In this document: positions 53,401 through 64,000 of the stretch, one piece after another
How the letters are laid out: each line of letters begins with the position of its first letter
Position numbering within the stretch: position 1 is the first letter of the stretch
Assembly (NCBI GenBank): GCA_022710935.1
Contig: JAKLFY010000001.1
Coordinates: 186,001 to 250,000 of the forward strand
Length of the DNA stretch: 64,000 nt
Source: Verrucomicrobiota bacterium
Lineage (GTDB): Bacteria; Verrucomicrobiota; Verrucomicrobiia; Limisphaerales; J093
Direction of reading: 5' to 3'
Notes under the pieces: generated by a model
What the model was told of the DNA's origin: nothing
Databases searched by the model: none
What the model saw: the letters and a program-made list of their open reading frames with translations, nothing else
Made by a program: the position numbers and the translations under genes

Positions 53401-55116
53401 ATGGAAGCTCGTCCGATTGTCCACAGGGTCCGAGGATCGCTGGCCGGGCTGTCGGTGCGGGGGCCGGTTCTCAAGGCGTCCTCCCACGCGGGCCAGATTC
53501 TAAGCAGCCTCTGTCTCCTGGCGCTCCTGGTTGCCGGCGCCATTCCCGCCGTTTTCGCGGCGGACAGGCTGAATGTCGTCTTCATTCTCGCCGACGACCT
53601 GGGCTGGGGAGAAGTCGGCTGCTACGGCCAGCAGAAGATCCCAACGCCGAACATCGACCGCCTCGCCGCGCAGGGGATGCGTTTCACGCAGCACTACAGT
53701 GGCGCGCCCGTGTGCGCTCCGTCGCGCTGTGTGCTGATGACCGGCAAACATCTGGGACACGCCGAAGTGCGGGGCAATCGGCAGGCCCGCTTGACTTTCC
53801 CGGAGTTCACCGAAGGGCAGCATCCGCTGTCCGAACCGGCGTTGACCATCGCGCAGGTGTTCCAGAGGGCCGGCTACGCCACGGGCGCGATGGGCAAGTG
53901 GGGACTCGGCCCGGTGGGCAGCACGGGCGATCCGAACCGCAAGGGCTTCGATCTGTTCTTCGGCTACAACTGCCAGGCTGTCGCGCACAGCTACTACCCG
54001 CCGCACCTGTGGCGGAACGCGGAAAGGGTCACGATTAATAGCAGGCCTGTCCCCGGCCACGCGAAGCAGCCCGAAGGCCAGGTCAAGCTCGAAGACTGGA
54101 TCGGCGACACCCACGCGCCGAAGCTCATGGTTGCGGAGGCCGAGAAGTTCATTGCCGCCCACGCCTCGCGCCCTTTCTTCCTCTACCTGCCCTTCACCGA
54201 ACCGCACGTCGCCATCCATCCGCCGCGCGAGTCGGTGCAGAGGTTCCCCGCCGAATGGGACACGGAGGTCTATCGCGGCGGGAACGGTTACCTGCCGCAT
54301 CCGCGTCCGCGCGCCGGTTACGCGGCGATGATCAACGACCTGGACGGCTACGTCGGCCGCGTGCTCGGGGCGCTCGACCGCGCGGGCGTGGCGGATCGCA
54401 CGCTGGTTGTCTTCACCAGCGACAACGGCGCCACGCACGAAGGGCGCGCGGAATCGCGTTTCCACGTCGGCGGCGCCGACCCGAAGTTCTTCAACAGCAC
54501 CGCCGGTCTGCGCGGCTACAAGGGCAGCGTGTATGAGGGAGGCATGCGCGTGCCGATGATTGCGCGTCTGCCCGGCCGCATCGCGGCCGGCGCGGTCAGG
54601 GACACGCCCGGTTATTTCGCCGACTGGTTCCCGACGCTGTGCGATGCCGCGGGATTCGAGAAGCCCGACGGCCTCGATGGCCAAAGTCTCTGGCCGGTGC
54701 TCACGGGCCGGTCCCAGACGCTCGACTCGCGCAAGCCCATGATCTGGGTCTTCCCCGAGTACGGCGGCCAGGTTGCAGTGCGGATCGGCGACTTCAAAGT
54801 CGTCCGGCAGGGACTGAACACGAAGAAGCCGGGCGCGTGGGAAGTGTACGATTTGGCGCAGGATCGCGGTGAAACGAAGGATCTGGCCGCCACGCGCGCC
54901 GACCTGGTCCAACAGGCCGTGGAACTTCTGCGCCGCGAGGTCGACGAGAACGCCCTCTTCCCCGTTACCATCCCCGGCGTCAATGAAAAGGGCTCCGGCA
55001 ACGCTGTTCGATACGGAGAACCGTGGGCGGATCGAATCGCCGTGCTGCCCCGGATTTGGGAACCGTCCAGCACCGGCCGATTGAAAGGACCCGACTCAAC
55101 CGGGACTGACTCATGA
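53401..55116 (+). CDS. Type I sulfatase, secreted
   Basis: This 571-residue arylsulfatase removes sulfate from a glycan. The signal core is ILSSLCLLALLVAGAIPAVFA at about residue 34, so the N-terminus may be annotated too long. FILADDLGWGEVGCYGQQ binds Ca. GAPVCAPSRCVLMTGKH has the C-x-P-S-R formylglycine motif. GKWGLG, YLPFTEPHVAIHPP and VFTSDNGATHEG (Asp-Asn) complete the active site. A separate formylglycine-generating enzyme is needed but not seen here. The next sulfatase overlaps it by 4 bp. Confidence 0.93.
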   Translation: MEARPIVHRVRGSLAGLSVRGPVLKASSHAGQILSSLCLLALLVAGAIPAVFAADRLNVVFILADDLGWGEVGCYGQQKIPTPNIDRLAAQGMRFTQHYSGAPVCAPSRCVLMTGKHLGHAEVRGNRQARLTFPEFTEGQHPLSEPALTIAQVFQRAGYATGAMGKWGLGPVGSTGDPNRKGFDLFFGYNCQAVAHSYYPPHLWRNAERVTINSRPVPGHAKQPEGQVKLEDWIGDTHAPKLMVAEAEKFIAAHASRPFFLYLPFTEPHVAIHPPRESVQRFPAEWDTEVYRGGNGYLPHPRPRAGYAAMINDLDGYVGRVLGALDRAGVADRTLVVFTSDNGATHEGRAESRFHVGGADPKFFNSTAGLRGYKGSVYEGGMRVPMIARLPGRIAAGAVRDTPGYFADWFPTLCDAAGFEKPDGLDGQSLWPVLTGRSQTLDSRKPMIWVFPEYGGQVAVRIGDFKVVRQGLNTKKPGAWEVYDLAQDRGETKDLAATRADLVQQAVELLRREVDENALFPVTIPGVNEKGSGNAVRYGEPWADRIAVLPRIWEPSSTGRLKGPDSTGTDS

Positions 55117-56603
55117 AACGACAACCCTGTGCTCTTCTCCTGGTTCTGTCGGCGTTCGCTCTCTCGATCGCCCCATACCCTGCCGCCGCGGCGGACGATC
55201 GCCCGAACATCCTCTTCTGTCTGGCGGACGATTGGGGGTGGCCGCACGCGGGGGCTTACGGCAATCCGGTCGTCAAGACCCCCGCCTTCGATCGCTTGGC
55301 GCGCGAGGGCGTGTTGTTCCATCGGGCCTACATTTCCTCGCCGTCCTGCACGCCTTCCCGCAATTCCATCCTCACGGGGCAGCAGTTCTACCGGCTGGGG
55401 TCGGGAGCCAATCTCTATGGCGCTCTGGATCGCAGGCATCCCAACTTCATGTTCAGTCTGCGCAAGGCCGGATACGAGATCGGGCATTGGCGCAAGGCGT
55501 GGGGGCCGGGACAGTTCGAACAGGGTGGATACACGGAACACCCCTGCGGCCCTGACGTGCCGTTCACGCGGTTCGTGAAATCGCGGAACGCCGACAGGCC
55601 GTTTTGCTTTTGGTTCGGCACCAGCGATCCGCATCGTCCCTACGAGGAGGGCAGCGGACGGGCGAGCGGGATGGATGTCGGCAGAGTTCCGACTCCCGGT
55701 TTTTTTCCCGACGAGGAACCGGTTCGTAGCGACATCGCGGACTACTATTTCGAAGTGCAGCGGTGGGACCGCGACGTGGCCGGCGCCATCAGGCTGCTCG
55801 AGGAGGCGGGCGTATTGGAGAATACGATTATAGTCATGAGTGGGGACAACGGCATGCCCTTTCCTCGCTGCAAGGGCAATCTGTATGACTGGGGCAGTCG
55901 AGTCCCGCTGGCCATCCGCTGGGGCCAGGGGATCAGACAGCCCGGGCGGGAGGTGACCGATTTTGTTTCGTTGACCGATCTCGCGCCGACATTCCTGAGC
56001 GCGGCCGGTCTCGAAGTCCCCGACGTGATGACCGGACGCTCCCTGCTGCCCATCTTCCAGAGCGACAAGAACGGGCGCATCGAGGCGGCGCGCGACCATG
56101 TCGTGTTTGGCCGGGAGCGGCACACCGATTGCCAGGAAGGCGGGCCGATGGGGTATCCTTCCCGCGCGCTGCGCACAGACGATTATCTCTATATCCGCAA
56201 CGACCAGCCCGAGCGATGGCCCGCGGGGACGCCTCACCGGGACAAGGCCTTCAAGCCGGACGCCTGGCTCGGCGATTGCGACAATGGTCCGACGAAGTTC
56301 TATCTGTGGGCCAACCGCGGCCTCGATGATGCGCACCGCCGCCTCCACGACTTGTCCTTCGCCAAGAGGCCATCCGAAGAACTGTACGTGTTGGCCGATG
56401 ACGGCGATCAGGTCAGGAATGTCGCCGGCGATCCGCGGCTCGCGGGGACTCGAGAGAGGCTGGCCGCGCAATTGACCGACTATCTGAAGCGGACCGGCGA
56501 CCCCAGGGAATCAGGTTCGCCGGCGGAGTTTGATTCGTATCCCTACATCGGCGGTGTTGTGAAGTGGCCCGGGGAGGACACGATCCGGGAGCACCATCGG
56601 TAG
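55113..56603 (+). CDS. Type I sulfatase, secreted (second)
   Basis: This 496-residue sulfatase has a signal peptide (LLLVLSAFALSIAPYPAAAA), Ca-binding ILFCLADDWGWPHAGAYG, formylglycine motif SSPSCTPSRNSILTGQ, FWFGTSDPHRPYEEGSG, and IIVMSGDNGMPFPRCKGNLYDWGSRVPL. The pattern resembles heparan N-sulfatase-like sulfatases. The ATGA overlap with the first sulfatase implies translational coupling, so two sulfate positions on one substrate are probably handled together. Confidence 0.93.
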   Translation: MKRQPCALLLVLSAFALSIAPYPAAAADDRPNILFCLADDWGWPHAGAYGNPVVKTPAFDRLAREGVLFHRAYISSPSCTPSRNSILTGQQFYRLGSGANLYGALDRRHPNFMFSLRKAGYEIGHWRKAWGPGQFEQGGYTEHPCGPDVPFTRFVKSRNADRPFCFWFGTSDPHRPYEEGSGRASGMDVGRVPTPGFFPDEEPVRSDIADYYFEVQRWDRDVAGAIRLLEEAGVLENTIIVMSGDNGMPFPRCKGNLYDWGSRVPLAIRWGQGIRQPGREVTDFVSLTDLAPTFLSAAGLEVPDVMTGRSLLPIFQSDKNGRIEAARDHVVFGRERHTDCQEGGPMGYPSRALRTDDYLYIRNDQPERWPAGTPHRDKAFKPDAWLGDCDNGPTKFYLWANRGLDDAHRRLHDLSFAKRPSEELYVLADDGDQVRNVAGDPRLAGTRERLAAQLTDYLKRTGDPRESGSPAEFDSYPYIGGVVKWPGEDTIREHHR

Positions 56604-56629
56604 TGCCGCAGACGAAAGACAACGATCCC

Positions 56630-57601
56630 ATGAAGTCCACGTCTCTGTTGTATGGCCTGCTCACCCTTGTGGTTTGCCTGACCGCCCCGGTCGCGGCACG
56701 TGCCGAGGACAAGGGGGTTCGCCTCGACGCGTTCCGTGCGCGTGATCCGTTCATCCTCCCGGATGCGCCAAGCCGCACCTACTACCTCGTGACGCGCTCG
56801 CGAGCCGGCGTTTGTGTCCGCACCAGCGGTGACCTTGCACAATGGAGCGAGCCGGTCGATGTCTTCACGCGTCCGCCCGACTTCTGGGGGGGGCCGAGTG
56901 TGTGGGCGCCGGAGATGCACCTGCACAAGGGCAAGTACTACATCTTCGCCACCTTCATGAACGACAAGCCGATCGGAGAACAATGGCCGGACTGGCCGGC
57001 ACGGATCCATCGCGGCACGCAAATCCTCGTCGCCGACGCCCCGACCGGGCCGTTCCGCAGCTTTGCCAACCGTCCGCACACTCCGGAAGAGGAGATGGCT
57101 CTCGATGGGACGCTGTGGGTCGAGGACGGCGTGCCTTACATGGTCTACTGCCACGAGTGGGTCCAAATCCGCAACGGATCAATCAAGGTCATCCGACTGC
57201 AAGACGACCTGTCGGGCGCGATCGGAGAACCGAAGCTGCTCTTCCGTGCCGGAGAGGCGCACTGGACGCCGCGCGATCGCAAGAGCTACGTCACGGACGG
57301 CCCGGCCCTGTACCGCACGAAGACCGGCAGATTGCTCATGCTGTGGTCGAGCTTCACTGACAGCGGGTATACCACCGGGATTGCGGAATCGGAATCGAGC
57401 GGAATTCATGGCCCATGGACGCATCAGATGGAACCGCTGTTTCGCAAAGACGGCGGCCATGCCATGGTCTTCCGCGACTTCGAAGGCCGCCTGATCCTCG
57501 CGCTGCACAGTCCGAACCGTGAGCCCGACGAACGCTGCCGTCTCTTCCTGCTCGAAGACACGGGCAAGACGCTGCGCATCACAGGGCCGCTGGCGGATTG
57601 A
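56630..57601 (+). CDS. Secreted GH43-like five-bladed propeller glycosidase
   Basis: This 323-residue protein has a signal peptide (MKSTSLLYGLLTLVVCLTAPVAARA). GH43-type acidic residues sit in FRARDPFILPDAPS (Asp), GPSVWAPEMHLHKGKYYIFAT, and EEMALDGTLWVEDGVPYMVYCHEW. Closing motifs are YVTDGPALYRTKTGRLLMLWSS and KDGGHAMVFRD. The start at 56630 lies 26 bp after the sulfatase pair on the same strand, so the three genes form one operon for a sulfated glycan. Substrate unknown. Confidence 0.87.
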   Translation: MKSTSLLYGLLTLVVCLTAPVAARAEDKGVRLDAFRARDPFILPDAPSRTYYLVTRSRAGVCVRTSGDLAQWSEPVDVFTRPPDFWGGPSVWAPEMHLHKGKYYIFATFMNDKPIGEQWPDWPARIHRGTQILVADAPTGPFRSFANRPHTPEEEMALDGTLWVEDGVPYMVYCHEWVQIRNGSIKVIRLQDDLSGAIGEPKLLFRAGEAHWTPRDRKSYVTDGPALYRTKTGRLLMLWSSFTDSGYTTGIAESESSGIHGPWTHQMEPLFRKDGGHAMVFRDFEGRLILALHSPNREPDERCRLFLLEDTGKTLRITGPLAD

Positions 57602-57764: not shown

Positions 57765-60700
57765 TCAGCGAACGCCGAAGACACACGAGGGCCGGTTCGG
57801 AAGCCTGCCTTGGGCGCGGGTGTTCCGTACCGCCCGAGCAGAGCAGTCACGCATTTTCGACAGAGCCGCTTTGCGACGCTGGCCGGTGGAAATGCAAGCC
57901 ATCCGCTTGTGGGCTTTCGCCAGGAGGATGAGTCGGGCGTTCGTCTCTCCGAACCGAAGCAGCCGCTCGATGCCTTCGATGGCCTCTCCGATAAGCTGGT
58001 GCGGCTTGAGCCTGGTGTCGCCCTTGCGTTTGGGTTGACGTGCGCACTGGACAGCCCAGCGGGTCTGATGGTCATACATCTGCTCGACGCACTCGAGGTC
58101 AAGGCGCGCACCCTCGCAAACCAAGGCGCGCTGGGTGCACCTGACAGCCTGTTCAAACCGGCCAAGCCCGGCCGAGGCCGATCCAAGCGCCGCCAGCACT
58201 TCCGCGGAATCAGCCCAGTCACGCAAGGCCACCTCGGCGAGTGTGTCGAGACGCCGGGAGAGACGTTCCAAGTCCTCCGCCGCGGCGTGCGCCGCCCTCG
58301 CCTCGAGTTCCTGCAACCGCACACAGACTTCGGTCGCGGCGTGAAACTTCTCCTCCGCCGGCTCCGCCGCCGCACCGTCGTCTTCGGTCGCCAGCCGGAA
58401 CTCAGGGTCGCCGTAGCATTGATACGCGCCCCAGGTGTTGACGCCCGGATGACGCCGATAGGCTTCGCGCCTCGCCTCGAGGACCGCGCGGCCAAAGGGA
58501 ACGCCGGCCATCAGCTCGTCGTAGAATCTGCGCGCGAAGGTTCCCGCCGCCTGGTCGTCCACCGCCCATCCGGCGGCCACCACCACCTTGACGCCCATGC
58601 GGATGAACTGCGCGGCAAGATTCGCCGCCAGTCGATTCCAGGCGGGAAGCTTGGTGGCTTGTGTTTCCGGGGTCGAGTCGACTCGCCTCAGATGGCAACA
58701 GTTGATGAACACCAGATCCGGCACCCGCCGCATCTGCTCGACGTCAGCCGGCGTCAGAAGGATGCCCTTGCCGATGATCATCCCGCTGACGAGCTGCGAT
58801 CCTCCGGATACAGGTTGCTTGCAGAGCGCGCACGACTCGATGCCGGCTCCCAGCGGGTACTCGTGCACCCCGTGGCCGGCCAGATGGAGGATGCGGTAGG
58901 ATTCTGCATGGAGGGCTTCTGCGATCGCGGGGGCACGGTTCCGGATGCACTCGGTCACCTCGTAGCCATTGCGGCGCAGCGAGTCGACAACCATACGCGC
59001 CTCGCCCTCCGCACCGGGCAGCGCCACCTCCCCGGTCGCGTCCGGGTCCCCGATGACCAGCGCGCCCTTGCGGGTCGTGGGAACGACATGCGGGCGGAAC
59101 TCACGCGTTTCGAGTTGGCGAATCACTCCGGCCTGAATCGAGAGAGGCTCACGATCGGGGCTGATGCGGTCTTCGAGGAGCTCCCACGGATACGCGGCCG
59201 CTCCTTCGTCGAGCACCAGGACGACAGCCTCCCGATTGGTCGCCTGTTCCTTCAGGTCGTTTGGCAGGAGTTGTTCGAACAGCGTCCTCGCGACCTCGTA
59301 CCGCGCGGTCGTGTCACGCATGGCCTCCACGATGAAGGTGTCCACAAGCGCCCGCTGGATCGGCACCAACGACAACTCGGCGCGGGCTTTCTGCGTCATG
59401 GCCACGAACTTCAGCGAGCCATTGTTCTGGGAGGTGATCTGGAGCCGGTGCCACCAGCCGGCAGGTTCCTCGAACGCGGCCCGTCGCCGGCCACCACCGA
59501 GCCGGCGCAGCCTGGTCTCGCACGTGAAATCTTCGTCCAAATCCCTGTCATGGGCCACGCCATCGAGTGCGCGCGCCGCCTCGATCGCCCGGTCCTCGAA
59601 CAGCTCGACAAACTCGACTTCGTCAATCGTCATCCGCGCCAACAGCTTTCGCTCTTCGAGAATCCGGATGGCCCGCCGCACGCCGCGGAGCAGGGACAGC
59701 ACCGAATCCTGCACCGTGAGCGCCCCCGCGCCACTGCCCACGAGCAGCGCGCTCAGTCTCACCGAGACCGGAACACCGGTGTTGGCACTGCCCTGCTCGG
59801 CCTGCCGCTCCGCCAGGGCGAGCGCGTAACGCCGCACGGCCTGCGCGGTGGTCCCAAGGAGGGCGTTCGGCGTCAGTTTCCCGGCCCAGCCAAGCCCCAT
59901 GACAATCGCGCCGGCGGGATGGCGCTGCCCTTCGGACCCCAATAACACCTCCGCCGTCTGCAAGGGCCCGGGATAGAGATCGAGCGACTGGCGTGTTCGC
60001 AGCCGCCCGCCAAGCGCCCGGTCGAGATACGACTCCGCGCTGACCAGACCGTCGCCGATGTAATGGCCGACGAGGATCGGATAGCGGGCATAAGCCAGGT
60101 CACCGTGTGCAATCGTCACCCTCGTCTTCGCCCGCTTCACCCGGCTTCGGCGCCGGGTGCGGCTGCCCGTGACCGCCAGGGCGAGCCCCTCATCGTCCGG
60201 ATACAAGTCGACCCGGTCGGGCTCCATGACGAAGGTGCGTTCGACACCGCGCTCGACCACGGGAGCTGTGGCCGCGAGTCGTGCCGTGGTCCCCGTTTGG
60301 AGCAGTTCGAGCAAGGCCGGGAAAGCGGGCTCATGGGCTGCCAGATCCCCATGCACCACGTCCCTCATGAACCAGGTCCGAACGTTGCGGGGCACACCGG
60401 TGCTCCAGGGTACGCGTCCGTCACCCTCGCGGCTGCCGTGGAAGCGCACCTCGGTCCGTGCGCCGGCCCGTGTGAGGACTTCGAGGGCCACCGGCGTCTC
60501 CGGCGCGCATCCGGCCACGTAAAGGATGCGATCGGATTGCGGCGGGTTTTGATCGAGCCACGCGCGGGTCGCACGCGCCGCCTCGAGCGCCGGGGCCGGC
60601 GGCGCCACCCAACCGGCCCGGGGTCCAACCTGATCGAGCAGGTTCGTCCAAAATGCCGGCGCGAAAAGATCGTGCTGCGGATCGGAGGGGAGCATCTCCA

Positions 60701-62825
60701 GCACGCCCGGAAAACGGGCAATAACCCGCAACAACTGCGACTGCGTTTGCGTGAAGTCCATCAGGGCGAGCAGGCGAACCGTCTTCTCCTGCGCCACGAG
60801 CAGACGCGGAATGGTGTGCGAGCCGCCGTTGGGTGTGCCGAGCATCACGAACCGCCCGTCGGGATGCTGCGTCAGGCGCGTCCAGAGGTCGGGGAACAAG
60901 GCGAACATGGCGCGCGTTACCAGGCCGCCCATCGAGTGGGCGAGGATTTGGACCGGCTGCCGCGCCCGATGCCCCAACTCGAGCATGTCGGCCACGAGCG
61001 CCGCCAGCCGCTTCGCTTCGTCCCGGATGGACTTGCGCCAGTCGTAGGGAAACGCAATGACTTCATGCGTCCGAGCCAGATACCTGATGAGGTCGCCATA
61101 CACTGCGCCCAGGGGGGCGTCGGGCACAACGTCCGGGGCATCGATGCCGAGCTTCTTCATGCCGCCCAGCGCCAGGTCAAAGGGATCCATCCAAATACGG
61201 TCGCCGTTGACTTTTAGATGCGTTCCCATGATTCCCGGCACGATGATGACGACCGGCCGCGGATGGCCCTCCCGGGGCGGCGCCGGAGCGGACGGCTCGC
61301 GCGGTGTGAGGTCAAGCGGCTGAAAGTCCTGCCGTCCATCGCCGGCCTGCGCGAGACCCGCGAGCAGGCGCGTCGCCGTCTTTGGATTGCGAAAATAGTG
61401 GAAGTGGCACACGTCCGGTCCTTGATCGAAGAAGAACCGGGCCGCGTCCTTCGATCGCCGCGCGCCGCCGAACATGGACGACGTGTCCACGACCAGGTCG
61501 TGGTCCCCACCGTAGAAAAGATCGGGCAGGAGCAGTTTCAGCCGCCCCAGCGCGCTGCGATCCTCGATGTCTCCGGCGATGATCGACAGGTCGGACGACA
61601 CTTCGAGATTCGGGCGGTTCAACACCTTCACCAGCGGCGACGCCGGCATCATGGCTTCGAGCCCCGGCAACACCTCGGGCTTGGCCCGCTGCCTGGCCAC
61701 CAGCAGCACGAGGTCACTGAGGAACTGATACACCGGCGAAGCCTCCGAGCCGGAGATCAGACCCACCAGATGCCGCAGGATCGAAAGCCAGGTGTCGAGC
61801 CGCTCGGAGGCGAGGGTTGTGCCTCGCGCCGGGCAGGCCACGCGGACAAATCGCGTGATCGCAAATTGCTTTTGCTTCAGCAGGGTGTTGAGTCTATTCA
61901 ACTCCTTGCACTGGTGCTCGCGAGCCTCCTTCAGGTCGCCTTCGGCGCTCCCGGCGGCCGACTTAAACACATCGAGGTCCTCCCCGGCGAACGGCTCCTG
62001 GCCGGCTGCCACCCCGCAGCGACAGAGCAGTTCACCAATCAGGCCTCCGCCCGAGTGGGATACCAAGTGCAGATCCGCACGCGCCGGCAATTGTGTGGCC
62101 AGGGCAATGGCATTCTCAATCGGACTGACCGTGAGCGTGGGATGCTCGAAGGCATAGATGCGGTCGGCGTAGCGCCGGCTCAATTCCTGCCAGACCGTCG
62201 CCACCTCCGCCGCCTGTGGTTTGGCCTTCTCGCCTGCGGCGGCTGGCCACAGGGCGCCGAAGCTCCCCTTGGTGCTGGACGCCGTGCCATGAAGGAAGAC
62301 CAGCATGGGTTGTTGCGCGGCGACCTTGACCTCCCCCTCGACCGGTTCGAGAGCGCCCGCGGGCGACTTCAAGACGCGATGCAGACCTGGGCGGGGGATG
62401 AGGTGCTTCTCGAGCGCGGCCACCGCCAGCAGCATCGTCTGCGCAAACTTCGGCTCGACGTCGACCTTGACGACGCGCAGACCCTTGATCAGCCACGACA
62501 CCCCGCCTCGCGCCGGACCGCCCAGGCTGAGTGTGGTCGGGAACATCGTTGCGCCCGAGGCGGCGTCCCGCGGCGCCTGGCCCGGATAGCGCTGCTGGAA
62601 TTGCGCCCAACTCGTCACGAGTCGGAAGCCGTTGTCCAATTCGATCTCCAGCACGTCGTCTCCGGCGATGTCCTTCACCTCGATCGGTGGCGTCGCCGCC
62701 GCGCGCGCCGCGTCGAGACTCACGGCCACCCTGGTCTTCGCCTTGAAGACCGCTTGCCCCACCGGGCTGGTGGTGATTTCACCGGCGGGCTCGGCCATGC
62801 CCGCGATGCGAAGGGTGGATTTCAT
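57765..62825 (-). CDS. Giant two-hydrolase, CHAT-protease and TPR fusion protein
   Basis: This 1,686-residue protein starts at 62825. Residues ~170-480 form an alpha/beta-hydrolase (PMLVFLHGTASSTKGSFG; nucleophile in LHLVSHSGGGLIGELL, Ser258). Residues ~520-840 form a second one of LCAT type (VVIIVPGIMGTHLKVNG; nucleophile in ILAHSMGGLVTRAMF, Ser631; MLGTPNGGSH). A long middle region follows. The CHAT caspase-like domain is at ~1200-1480: LDEGAAAYPWELLED, LHLAGHGVHEYPLG (His1318), VFINCCHL (Cys1377) and VVVAAGWAVDDQAAGTFARRFY. A TPR-like helical tail ends the protein. There is no signal peptide. CHAT proteases elsewhere cleave proteins in defence or cell-death pathways, but the role here is inferred. 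It lies 113 bp after a metalloprotease gene on the same strand. Confidence 0.88.
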   Translation of the reverse strand: MKSTLRIAGMAEPAGEITTSPVGQAVFKAKTRVAVSLDAARAAATPPIEVKDIAGDDVLEIELDNGFRLVTSWAQFQQRYPGQAPRDAASGATMFPTTLSLGGPARGGVSWLIKGLRVVKVDVEPKFAQTMLLAVAALEKHLIPRPGLHRVLKSPAGALEPVEGEVKVAAQQPMLVFLHGTASSTKGSFGALWPAAAGEKAKPQAAEVATVWQELSRRYADRIYAFEHPTLTVSPIENAIALATQLPARADLHLVSHSGGGLIGELLCRCGVAAGQEPFAGEDLDVFKSAAGSAEGDLKEAREHQCKELNRLNTLLKQKQFAITRFVRVACPARGTTLASERLDTWLSILRHLVGLISGSEASPVYQFLSDLVLLVARQRAKPEVLPGLEAMMPASPLVKVLNRPNLEVSSDLSIIAGDIEDRSALGRLKLLLPDLFYGGDHDLVVDTSSMFGGARRSKDAARFFFDQGPDVCHFHYFRNPKTATRLLAGLAQAGDGRQDFQPLDLTPREPSAPAPPREGHPRPVVIIVPGIMGTHLKVNGDRIWMDPFDLALGGMKKLGIDAPDVVPDAPLGAVYGDLIRYLARTHEVIAFPYDWRKSIRDEAKRLAALVADMLELGHRARQPVQILAHSMGGLVTRAMFALFPDLWTRLTQHPDGRFVMLGTPNGGSHTIPRLLVAQEKTVRLLALMDFTQTQSQLLRVIARFPGVLEMLPSDPQHDLFAPAFWTNLLDQVGPRAGWVAPPAPALEAARATRAWLDQNPPQSDRILYVAGCAPETPVALEVLTRAGARTEVRFHGSREGDGRVPWSTGVPRNVRTWFMRDVVHGDLAAHEPAFPALLELLQTGTTARLAATAPVVERGVERTFVMEPDRVDLYPDDEGLALAVTGSRTRRRSRVKRAKTRVTIAHGDLAYARYPILVGHYIGDGLVSAESYLDRALGGRLRTRQSLDLYPGPLQTAEVLLGSEGQRHPAGAIVMGLGWAGKLTPNALLGTTAQAVRRYALALAERQAEQGSANTGVPVSVRLSALLVGSGAGALTVQDSVLSLLRGVRRAIRILEERKLLARMTIDEVEFVELFEDRAIEAARALDGVAHDRDLDEDFTCETRLRRLGGGRRRAAFEEPAGWWHRLQITSQNNGSLKFVAMTQKARAELSLVPIQRALVDTFIVEAMRDTTARYEVARTLFEQLLPNDLKEQATNREAVVLVLDEGAAAYPWELLEDRISPDREPLSIQAGVIRQLETREFRPHVVPTTRKGALVIGDPDATGEVALPGAEGEARMVVDSLRRNGYEVTECIRNRAPAIAEALHAESYRILHLAGHGVHEYPLGAGIESCALCKQPVSGGSQLVSGMIIGKGILLTPADVEQMRRVPDLVFINCCHLRRVDSTPETQATKLPAWNRLAANLAAQFIRMGVKVVVAAGWAVDDQAAGTFARRFYDELMAGVPFGRAVLEARREAYRRHPGVNTWGAYQCYGDPEFRLATEDDGAAAEPAEEKFHAATEVCVRLQELEARAAHAAAEDLERLSRRLDTLAEVALRDWADSAEVLAALGSASAGLGRFEQAVRCTQRALVCEGARLDLECVEQMYDHQTRWAVQCARQPKRKGDTRLKPHQLIGEAIEGIERLLRFGETNARLILLAKAHKRMACISTGQRRKAALSKMRDCSARAVRNTRAQGRLPNRPSCVFGVR

Positions 62826-62938
62826 GATTCTGTGAAGAAGCGGTAAAAGGTCCCCAGCCCCCACTAAACGCCTGTTGCGGAAGCCAGCGCGCGCCGACCG
62901 CGGAGCACTTGGTTATTGGTCGTCGCCCACGTCGCGGC

Positions 62939-64000
62939 CTACTTATAGGTCACCCACGCGATGCCGAGGTTGTAGCCGTAGGTCTTGATCAACATCTTGG
63001 CGTAGCGGCCGGCGTTGGTCTTGATGGCGATGACCGTGCCGGGGGTCAGACGGTTGGCCGACGAGGCGCTGCCATTGATCGGGAGAGCGGTGTAGGGCTG
63101 GGCCTTGAGCGTCTGTAACGAGACCGCGTCGAAGTTCGGTTTACCCATGTGGGCCAAGAAGGCCCCGCTCTGCGGGGTCAGGAAACGGACGGTCGCAGTG
63201 GCTTGCCGCCACCAGATATCGGCCCCGGTGGGTGGTCCCTGCTTGCCGGTGTCGAAGTCGAAGGTCCAGGTGCCTTTGAGGATGGTGGTTCCTTTGGATT
63301 GGACGGCCAGTTCGTTCCAGCCGAGGTGGCCGCGGGTGTAATCGCAGACCGCCGGGGTGTTGGCCTTCATCAAGCAGGGCATCGAGGCTGGGTTGCAGTT
63401 CTCGCAGTTCCCGTTGGCCACCTGATAGCGCCCGAACACGCTGGTGCAGTTGCATCCGCTCGAGCCGTACTCGTCAGGGCAGCCGAAGACATGACCGGTT
63501 TCGTGAGCCACGACCCGGCTGAAGTTGTCGATGCCCCACCCATCGACCCCGAAGTCCATGACCACATGGTTTCCCCAATAATAGGCGAACCAGGTCTTCG
63601 GGTACTTCGTCACGAAGAGCGCATAGGCCCATTGGGCCGCGTTGGCGGCCTTGATATGATTGATGTAGGCGACCATGCCGTTGATGTTGGCCGGGTAGCC
63701 TAGGACGCCCATGCCGGCGTTGCGCCATAGATCCTCCCAGCTATTCTGGTTCGCGGGGGTAAACTGGTTGGCGGCGAGACCGATCTTGGGTCGCTTGAAG
63801 TCGTAGAACCACTGGATATTAGCGCGCGGCTCGAAACCGGAGAGCATGCTCAGCCCTTCGGTCGTCTCGGAAACGACCTTCATCTTCTCCTGATCCGTGA
63901 TCGCGTAAGCGCCCACAGTGCTGTCGACGAACACCACCCCCACGGCCACGCGTCCCGTGAGGACCGGGATGCTCATCACCGGGCCACCCCGGGTGGCGGC
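62939..64000 (-). CDS. Zinc metalloprotease, 5'-partial
   Basis: At least 353 residues; the frame is open to the window edge, so the true start is outside (an internal GTG at 63979 is possible). A zinc site of metzincin type is clear: VVAHETGHVFGCPDEYG (H-E-x-x-H-x-x-G-x-x-D, third ligand Asp). It is followed by a Cys-rich segment (GCNCTSVF, NCENCNPASMPCLMKAN, the last like a Met-turn) and CDYTRGHLGW. The C-terminal ~120 residues look like beta strands. It probably acts outside the cell, or is activated by processing. Co-directional with the CHAT gene, 113 bp upstream of it. Confidence 0.8.
   Translation of the reverse strand, partial: AATRGGPVMSIPVLTGRVAVGVVFVDSTVGAYAITDQEKMKVVSETTEGLSMLSGFEPRANIQWFYDFKRPKIGLAANQFTPANQNSWEDLWRNAGMGVLGYPANINGMVAYINHIKAANAAQWAYALFVTKYPKTWFAYYWGNHVVMDFGVDGWGIDNFSRVVAHETGHVFGCPDEYGSSGCNCTSVFGRYQVANGNCENCNPASMPCLMKANTPAVCDYTRGHLGWNELAVQSKGTTILKGTWTFDFDTGKQGPPTGADIWWRQATATVRFLTPQSGAFLAHMGKPNFDAVSLQTLKAQPYTALPINGSASSANRLTPGTVIAIKTNAGRYAKMLIKTYGYNLGIAWVTYK

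Follow-up and report, generated by a model that had tools for sequence, protein, structure and literature searches.

The pairing of a caspase with an alpha/beta-hydrolase has already been described in bacterial conflict systems, where the two are encoded by separate genes. In the VMAP systems, caspase domains always occur with a neighbouring alpha/beta-hydrolase gene (Kaur et al. 2020, PMC7159879). In the canu anti-phage loci, a caspase activates an adjacent pro-nuclease by proteolysis (PMC12799240). The window analysed here, a stretch of 64,000 nucleotides from a Verrucomicrobiota bacterium, encodes on its reverse strand a 1699-aa protein in which two alpha/beta-hydrolases, a macro-like domain, a CHAT domain and a TPR tail are joined on one chain. 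The locus resembles the VMAP and MoxR-vWA systems in combining a caspase-superfamily peptidase and an alpha/beta-hydrolase with exchangeable effectors (TIR, trypsin, caspase). The VMAP hydrolase is a separate gene, however, whereas the window protein fuses two hydrolases in cis with macro-like and TPR-S regions. MoxR ATPase and vWA were not among the best 25 of 62 upstream-gene families across the homologous loci, and no recurring pair of them was seen.

With canu and with the Hachiman and AVAST pairs, the locus shares a protease gene with an adjacent effector enzyme, a caspase-type protease and TPR regions (PMC12799240), but here the effector is phospholipase-like and lies on the same chain, and the partner gene often encodes a protease. 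The TPR-CHAT protein Csx29 of the type III-E CRISPR Craspase and the SAVED-CHAT proteins also combine TPR and CHAT, and in structure the CHAT region here lies close to Csx29 (Z 20.8). Unlike these, the window protein is found without a CRISPR effector or SAVED domain and has two hydrolases and the macro-like domain. The novelty here is the in-cis fusion of such parts together with a macro-like domain. A literature search found no paper on DUF7379, the domain of the first hydrolase, nor on the multi-domain architecture. CHAT-TPR-S proteins may have been noted earlier, in the 2020 TPR-S paper by Burroughs & Aravind, and the novelty would then be smaller.

Domain architecture of the CHAT protein

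The DUF7379-LCAT-macro-like-CHAT-TPR protein is encoded by a single ORF at 57765–62864 (reverse strand), as defined by the reading frame, Pfam, homologue alignment and AlphaFold. It is 1699 aa long from a GTG start and 1686 aa from an ATG 13 codons in, the latter agreeing with the single frame of about 1,686 residues in the initial annotation. All of the motifs named there were located: SHSGGG at S271, AHSMGG at S644, AGHG at H1331 and NCC at C1389-C1390. The chain was modelled with AlphaFold as two halves, both predicted confidently (mean pLDDT 86.1 and 84.8), and no hydrophobic or signal segment was found in the 1699 residues. Residues 1–170 (62355–62864, reverse strand) form an N-terminal mixed alpha/beta region that AlphaFold predicts to be structured; a fold search in which the second hydrolase took up most of the matches gave no assignment for it. 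The domains that had been named are real, but a macro-like domain at residues 911–1110 had been overlooked.

The first alpha/beta-hydrolase spans residues ~185–505 (61350–62312, reverse strand) and matches DUF7379 (PF24096) with 114.6 bits against a cut-off of 33. Its putative triad S271-D456-H487 is invariant, with each residue retained in 81/81 full-length homologues. The identity of this domain rests on DUF7379 and the conserved Ser, Asp and His, because the second hydrolase dominated the structure-search matches. This second hydrolase spans residues ~535–865 (60270–61262, reverse strand) and matches LCAT (PF02450) with 39.4 bits against a cut-off of 21. Of its triad, S644 is retained in 77/81 homologues and D815 and H838 in 81/81 each. 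A PDB structure search placed it with lysosomal phospholipase A2 (Z 27.5, rmsd 2.9 over 296 residues), followed by LCAT (Z 24.9) and the Tle4 phospholipase (Z 24.8), and on sequence and model it is predicted to be of the phospholipase type. It shares the fold and the Ser-Asp-His triad of LCAT and lysosomal phospholipase A2 (PLA2G15) but differs in being bacterial, cytosolic-looking and fused to a protease.

The CHAT domain occupies residues ~1136–1497 (58374–59459, reverse strand; PF12770, 93.6 bits against a cut-off of 24). Its His-Cys dyad is almost perfectly conserved in the 81 full-length homologues, with H1331 in 81/81, C1389 in 80/81 and the adjacent C1390 in 81/81. Separase is the top structural match of the region (Z 21.7), and the anti-sigma factor DdvA is also matched. 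The domain thus has a caspase/separase-like fold in the predicted model and is a predicted protease. It differs from separase in having no cohesin context and in its other fused domains. The two hydrolase nucleophiles and the CHAT His-Cys pair recognised initially are therefore well founded, with Pfam scores above the cut-offs and residues that are invariant or nearly so. Degenerate active sites, named as an outcome that would refute the earlier reading, were ruled against, as the sites are intact and both half-models are confident.

Between the second hydrolase and the CHAT domain lies the macro-like or leucine-aminopeptidase-N-like domain (residues ~911–1110; 59535–60134, reverse strand), which was assigned from fold, profile matches and loop conservation. 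When the AlphaFold half was compared with the PDB, this region matched leucyl aminopeptidase (Z 16.6) and macroH2A (Z 16.1). In a sequence profile search, its first half aligned with a PepA-type N-terminus (E 0.0015). The window copy has no Pfam match over the cut-off to M17_N or macro; M17_N is matched in 9/44 relatives, and L049 scores over the cut-off. The domain carries the loop GSGAGA at residues 1043–1048. The conserved family consensus of this loop is GTGAGG, and the macro protein TTHA0132 has a GTGVGG loop that aligns with it weakly (E 0.71). This phosphate loop plausibly resembles that of TTHA0132, and ADP-ribose binding is only putative.

The C-terminus is a helical TPR tail (residues ~1509–1690; 57795–58340, reverse strand), assigned from Pfam TPR_2 and family comparison as a shortened TPR-S form. 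TPR-S (PF20308, 'Tetratricopeptide Repeats-Sensor') was identified by Pfam in the tails of 41/44 relatives, and the window tail matches TPR_2 only. The TPR-like tail noted at the outset is present, but it ends ~120 aa earlier than in the family. A C-terminal frameshift was considered and rejected, and since no other frame continues the tail, it is taken as truncated.

Family distribution and neighbouring genes

A scan of genome contigs with the single sequence found no relatives, and a 5-sequence alignment was used to scan 84,980 species genomes, giving at least 569 relatives. From these, 80 near full-length loci from at least eight phyla were retained. The conservation counts are based on 81 full-length sequences, the Pfam architectures on a sample of 44 and the neighbour survey on 78 loci. 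Sensing, proteolysis and predicted phospholipid hydrolysis may thus be combined on one polypeptide in a family with more than 500 relatives in one genome scan, spread over at least eight phyla, and the DUF7379 hydrolases gain a context. Among 388 sampled Verrucomicrobiota genomes, the full-length protein was found only in the host genome. Five plasmid records (Ensifer, Azotobacter and three Paracoccus) carry relatives with at least 80% coverage and 34–38% identity. No relatives were found in phage genomes and IMG/VR viral contigs, and PADLOC gave no model match for the CHAT protein, the upstream metalloprotease or the homologue L052.

The architecture of the family is modular. One relative is LCAT-M17_N-CHAT (L049), another is M17_N-CHAT-TPR-S (L048), and three are DUF7379-CHAT (L136–L138). 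Among the last, the Verrucomicrobiota protein at L136:1024–7822 is preceded, at a distance of two genes, by a gene with a caspase domain (C14), so the caspase pairing reaches this distant architecture.

Other variants were also observed. An LCAT-type hydrolase occurs with a trypsin-like domain and without CHAT at L051:7629–10358. Four proteins (L058, L064, L066 and L126) have an additional C-terminus of ~350 aa, for a total length of 2050–2170 aa. At a single locus of Azotobacter chroococcum (L098) the full-length gene is present twice; a metacaspase gene adjoins one copy and a TIR gene the other.

Neighbouring genes at the 78 loci were identified by Pfam and tblastn, with the tblastn seeds drawn from the neighbours themselves, and those within 3 kb were compared with those farther away on the same contigs. 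In these counts, which treat related loci as independent, a metacaspase gene (Peptidase_C14) lies within 3 kb at 24/78 loci, always on the same strand, and only two lie farther away. The M15 peptidases are similarly placed, being found downstream within 3 kb at 18/78 loci, all on the same strand, with one farther away. TIR genes number 23 within 3 kb versus 7 farther (same strand within 3 kb at 20/78 loci), TPR-S genes 18 versus 7 and SLOG-like genes 16 versus 6 (SLOG/TPR-S on the same strand within 3 kb at 14–15/78 loci). Rarer partners within 3 kb are clostripain (3), patatin (3), astacin (2) and a transglutaminase-like protein (1). About two thirds of the loci have a gene nearby for another protease, for a lipase or for a protein of the TIR, SLOG or TPR-S type, and 26/78, several of them on cut contigs, have no recognised partner within 3 kb.

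The metacaspases retain the motifs GHG and D[SC]CHSG in 17/17 cases. Their pairing with the CHAT gene changes at least seven times on the tree and occurs in Alpha-, Beta- and Gammaproteobacteria and Myxococcota; it has therefore been gained or lost repeatedly. The partner position is a slot for an exchangeable protease or NAD- or lipid-acting effector. The repeated presence of a second protease next door makes protease-to-protease or protease-to-lipase activation in bacterial cell death directly testable.

Clustering of the homologues in defence islands, which the initial annotation had asked to be checked, applies to some loci only. The Azotobacter plasmid locus is accompanied by restriction-modification and Fic genes and a Rhizobium locus by TIR genes, but the wider neighbourhoods are mostly ordinary; among 74 control genes more than 5 kb away, no partner family occurs twice. 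The adjacent genes are thus often of the immunity or death type (metacaspase, TIR, SLOG/TPR-S, patatin), while the farther ones mostly are not.

The M15-type peptidase follows the CHAT gene at, for example, L087, L091, L100, L104, L107 and L130. At several loci it is itself followed by a ~517-aa protein without a Pfam match (cluster 8).

Candidate functions

The anatomy of the protein and its neighbours point, with slightly better than even confidence, to an effector of regulated death or immunity. Such an executor protein would be cytosolic and normally silent. The TPR-S tail and/or the macro-like domain would bind a signal of infection or stress, and the CHAT protease would be freed. This signal is plausibly a nucleotide derived from ADP-ribose or NAD, which a TIR-type partner would make at the loci that have one. 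The freed CHAT would then process the hydrolases and/or the partner enzyme, and membrane-lipid hydrolysis together with proteolysis would kill or arrest the cell. The specific ligand is proposed with lower confidence than the death or immunity reading itself. The initial proposal of a membrane-lipid attack coupled to proteolytic control is supported in part, as the second hydrolase is of the phospholipase type and the sites are intact, but the pairing with the metalloprotease is not conserved. Counting against a role in death or immunity are the 26/78 partnerless loci, the ordinary wider surroundings, the lack of a PADLOC model and of phage carriage, and the partial loss of the TPR-S tail in the window.

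A narrower form of this explanation, held tentatively as a minority possibility, is an anti-phage component of the Thoeris or canu type in which nucleotides from TIR or SLOG proteins trigger the TPR-S or macro region. The same-strand TIR and SLOG/TPR-S genes, the TPR-S tails of the relatives and the macro-type phosphate loop all agree with it, but a TIR gene is missing at most loci, including that of the window. Extending the death reading to a caspase cascade is unlikely to be correct. A NAD- or ADP-ribose-type signal would act on the macro-like domain and TPR-S, CHAT would serve as the initiator, a metacaspase, clostripain or metzincin would serve as the executioner, and the two in-cis phospholipases would be activated. 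If this were true, membrane and proteome would be destroyed together by a self-contained bacterial system.

The structural closeness of the CHAT domain to separase and its match to DdvA would also suit a HetF- or separase-like protease of stress or developmental signalling that cleaves one particular regulatory substrate, with hydrolases that remodel lipids or scaffold ligands and no part in death or defence. Some copies do stand alone or beside housekeeping genes, and those of Ensifer and Paracoccus have periplasmic or solute-binding-type genes upstream. This role is nonetheless rather unlikely, as genes for metacaspases, TIR proteins, patatins and SLOG/TPR-S proteins repeatedly accompany the CHAT gene. 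Two complete hydrolase triads are also kept in nearly all 81 sequences, which suggests catalysis over scaffolding. A secreted or injected lipase that acts on other cells, like the T6SS Tle effectors, is very unlikely: the match of the second hydrolase to Tle4 and the M15 and peptidoglycan-binding neighbours would fit, but the chain lacks an export segment, no secretion-system gene is among the recurring neighbours listed, and fusion to CHAT and a TPR tail suits intracellular sensing. The probability of a degenerate pseudoenzyme scaffold is close to negligible, since the replacements of S644 (4/81) and C1389 (1/81) are set against catalytic positions that are otherwise all invariant.

The upstream metalloprotease and flanking genes

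The gene upstream of the CHAT gene on the same strand encodes a metzincin (M6/M7-like), of which the window holds the 3' part (62939–64000, reverse strand). The HExxHxxGxxD protease recorded at this position is real. Its zinc-binding motif HETGHVFGCPD starts at residue 328 (63473–63505, reverse strand), and its stop at 62939 leaves a gap of 74 bp to the CHAT gene start. Extending the contig to the right, as had been suggested, completed the gene to 515 aa (C1:248939–250486 of the 7.5 Mb host assembly) and uncovered an adjoining 134-aa ORF. The protein aligns with snapalysin and is below the family cut-offs (Peptidase_M7, 19.8 against 25; TIGR03296, 25.8 against 110.8).

The expectation that this metalloprotease would be a conserved neighbour was not borne out, as an astacin is found at that spot in only 2/78 loci and the tree-nearest locus (L065) has none. 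A conserved metzincin partner was rejected, the relatives found sharing only the C-terminal ~120 aa. This C-terminal domain (62942–63304, reverse strand) is also present on TIR proteins beside CHAT homologues at four loci (L055, L064, L126 and L129), and the metzincin is therefore tied to such loci.

The 134-aa ORF (C1:250453–250857) overlaps the start of the metzincin gene, and its product is ~30% identical to the N-terminal region of the metzincin; neither of the two has a family match. By reading of the sequences, the metzincin N-terminus is possibly of the propeptide or inhibitor type and the 134-aa protein a free-standing paralogue of it. At the window locus, the two could hold the metzincin inactive until CHAT cuts.

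Farther upstream is a 1163-aa multi-TM protein without a Pfam match (L002:12594–16085, reverse strand), which was rejected as a partner, as no relative occurs near other CHAT loci. On the other side, two sulfatase-like genes and one glycoside-hydrolase-like gene (53401–57601, forward strand), identified by reading only, are convergent with the CHAT gene. The host genome also contains five more CHAT-domain stretches, on contigs without a DUF7379 match (C72, C74, C180, C181 and C244).
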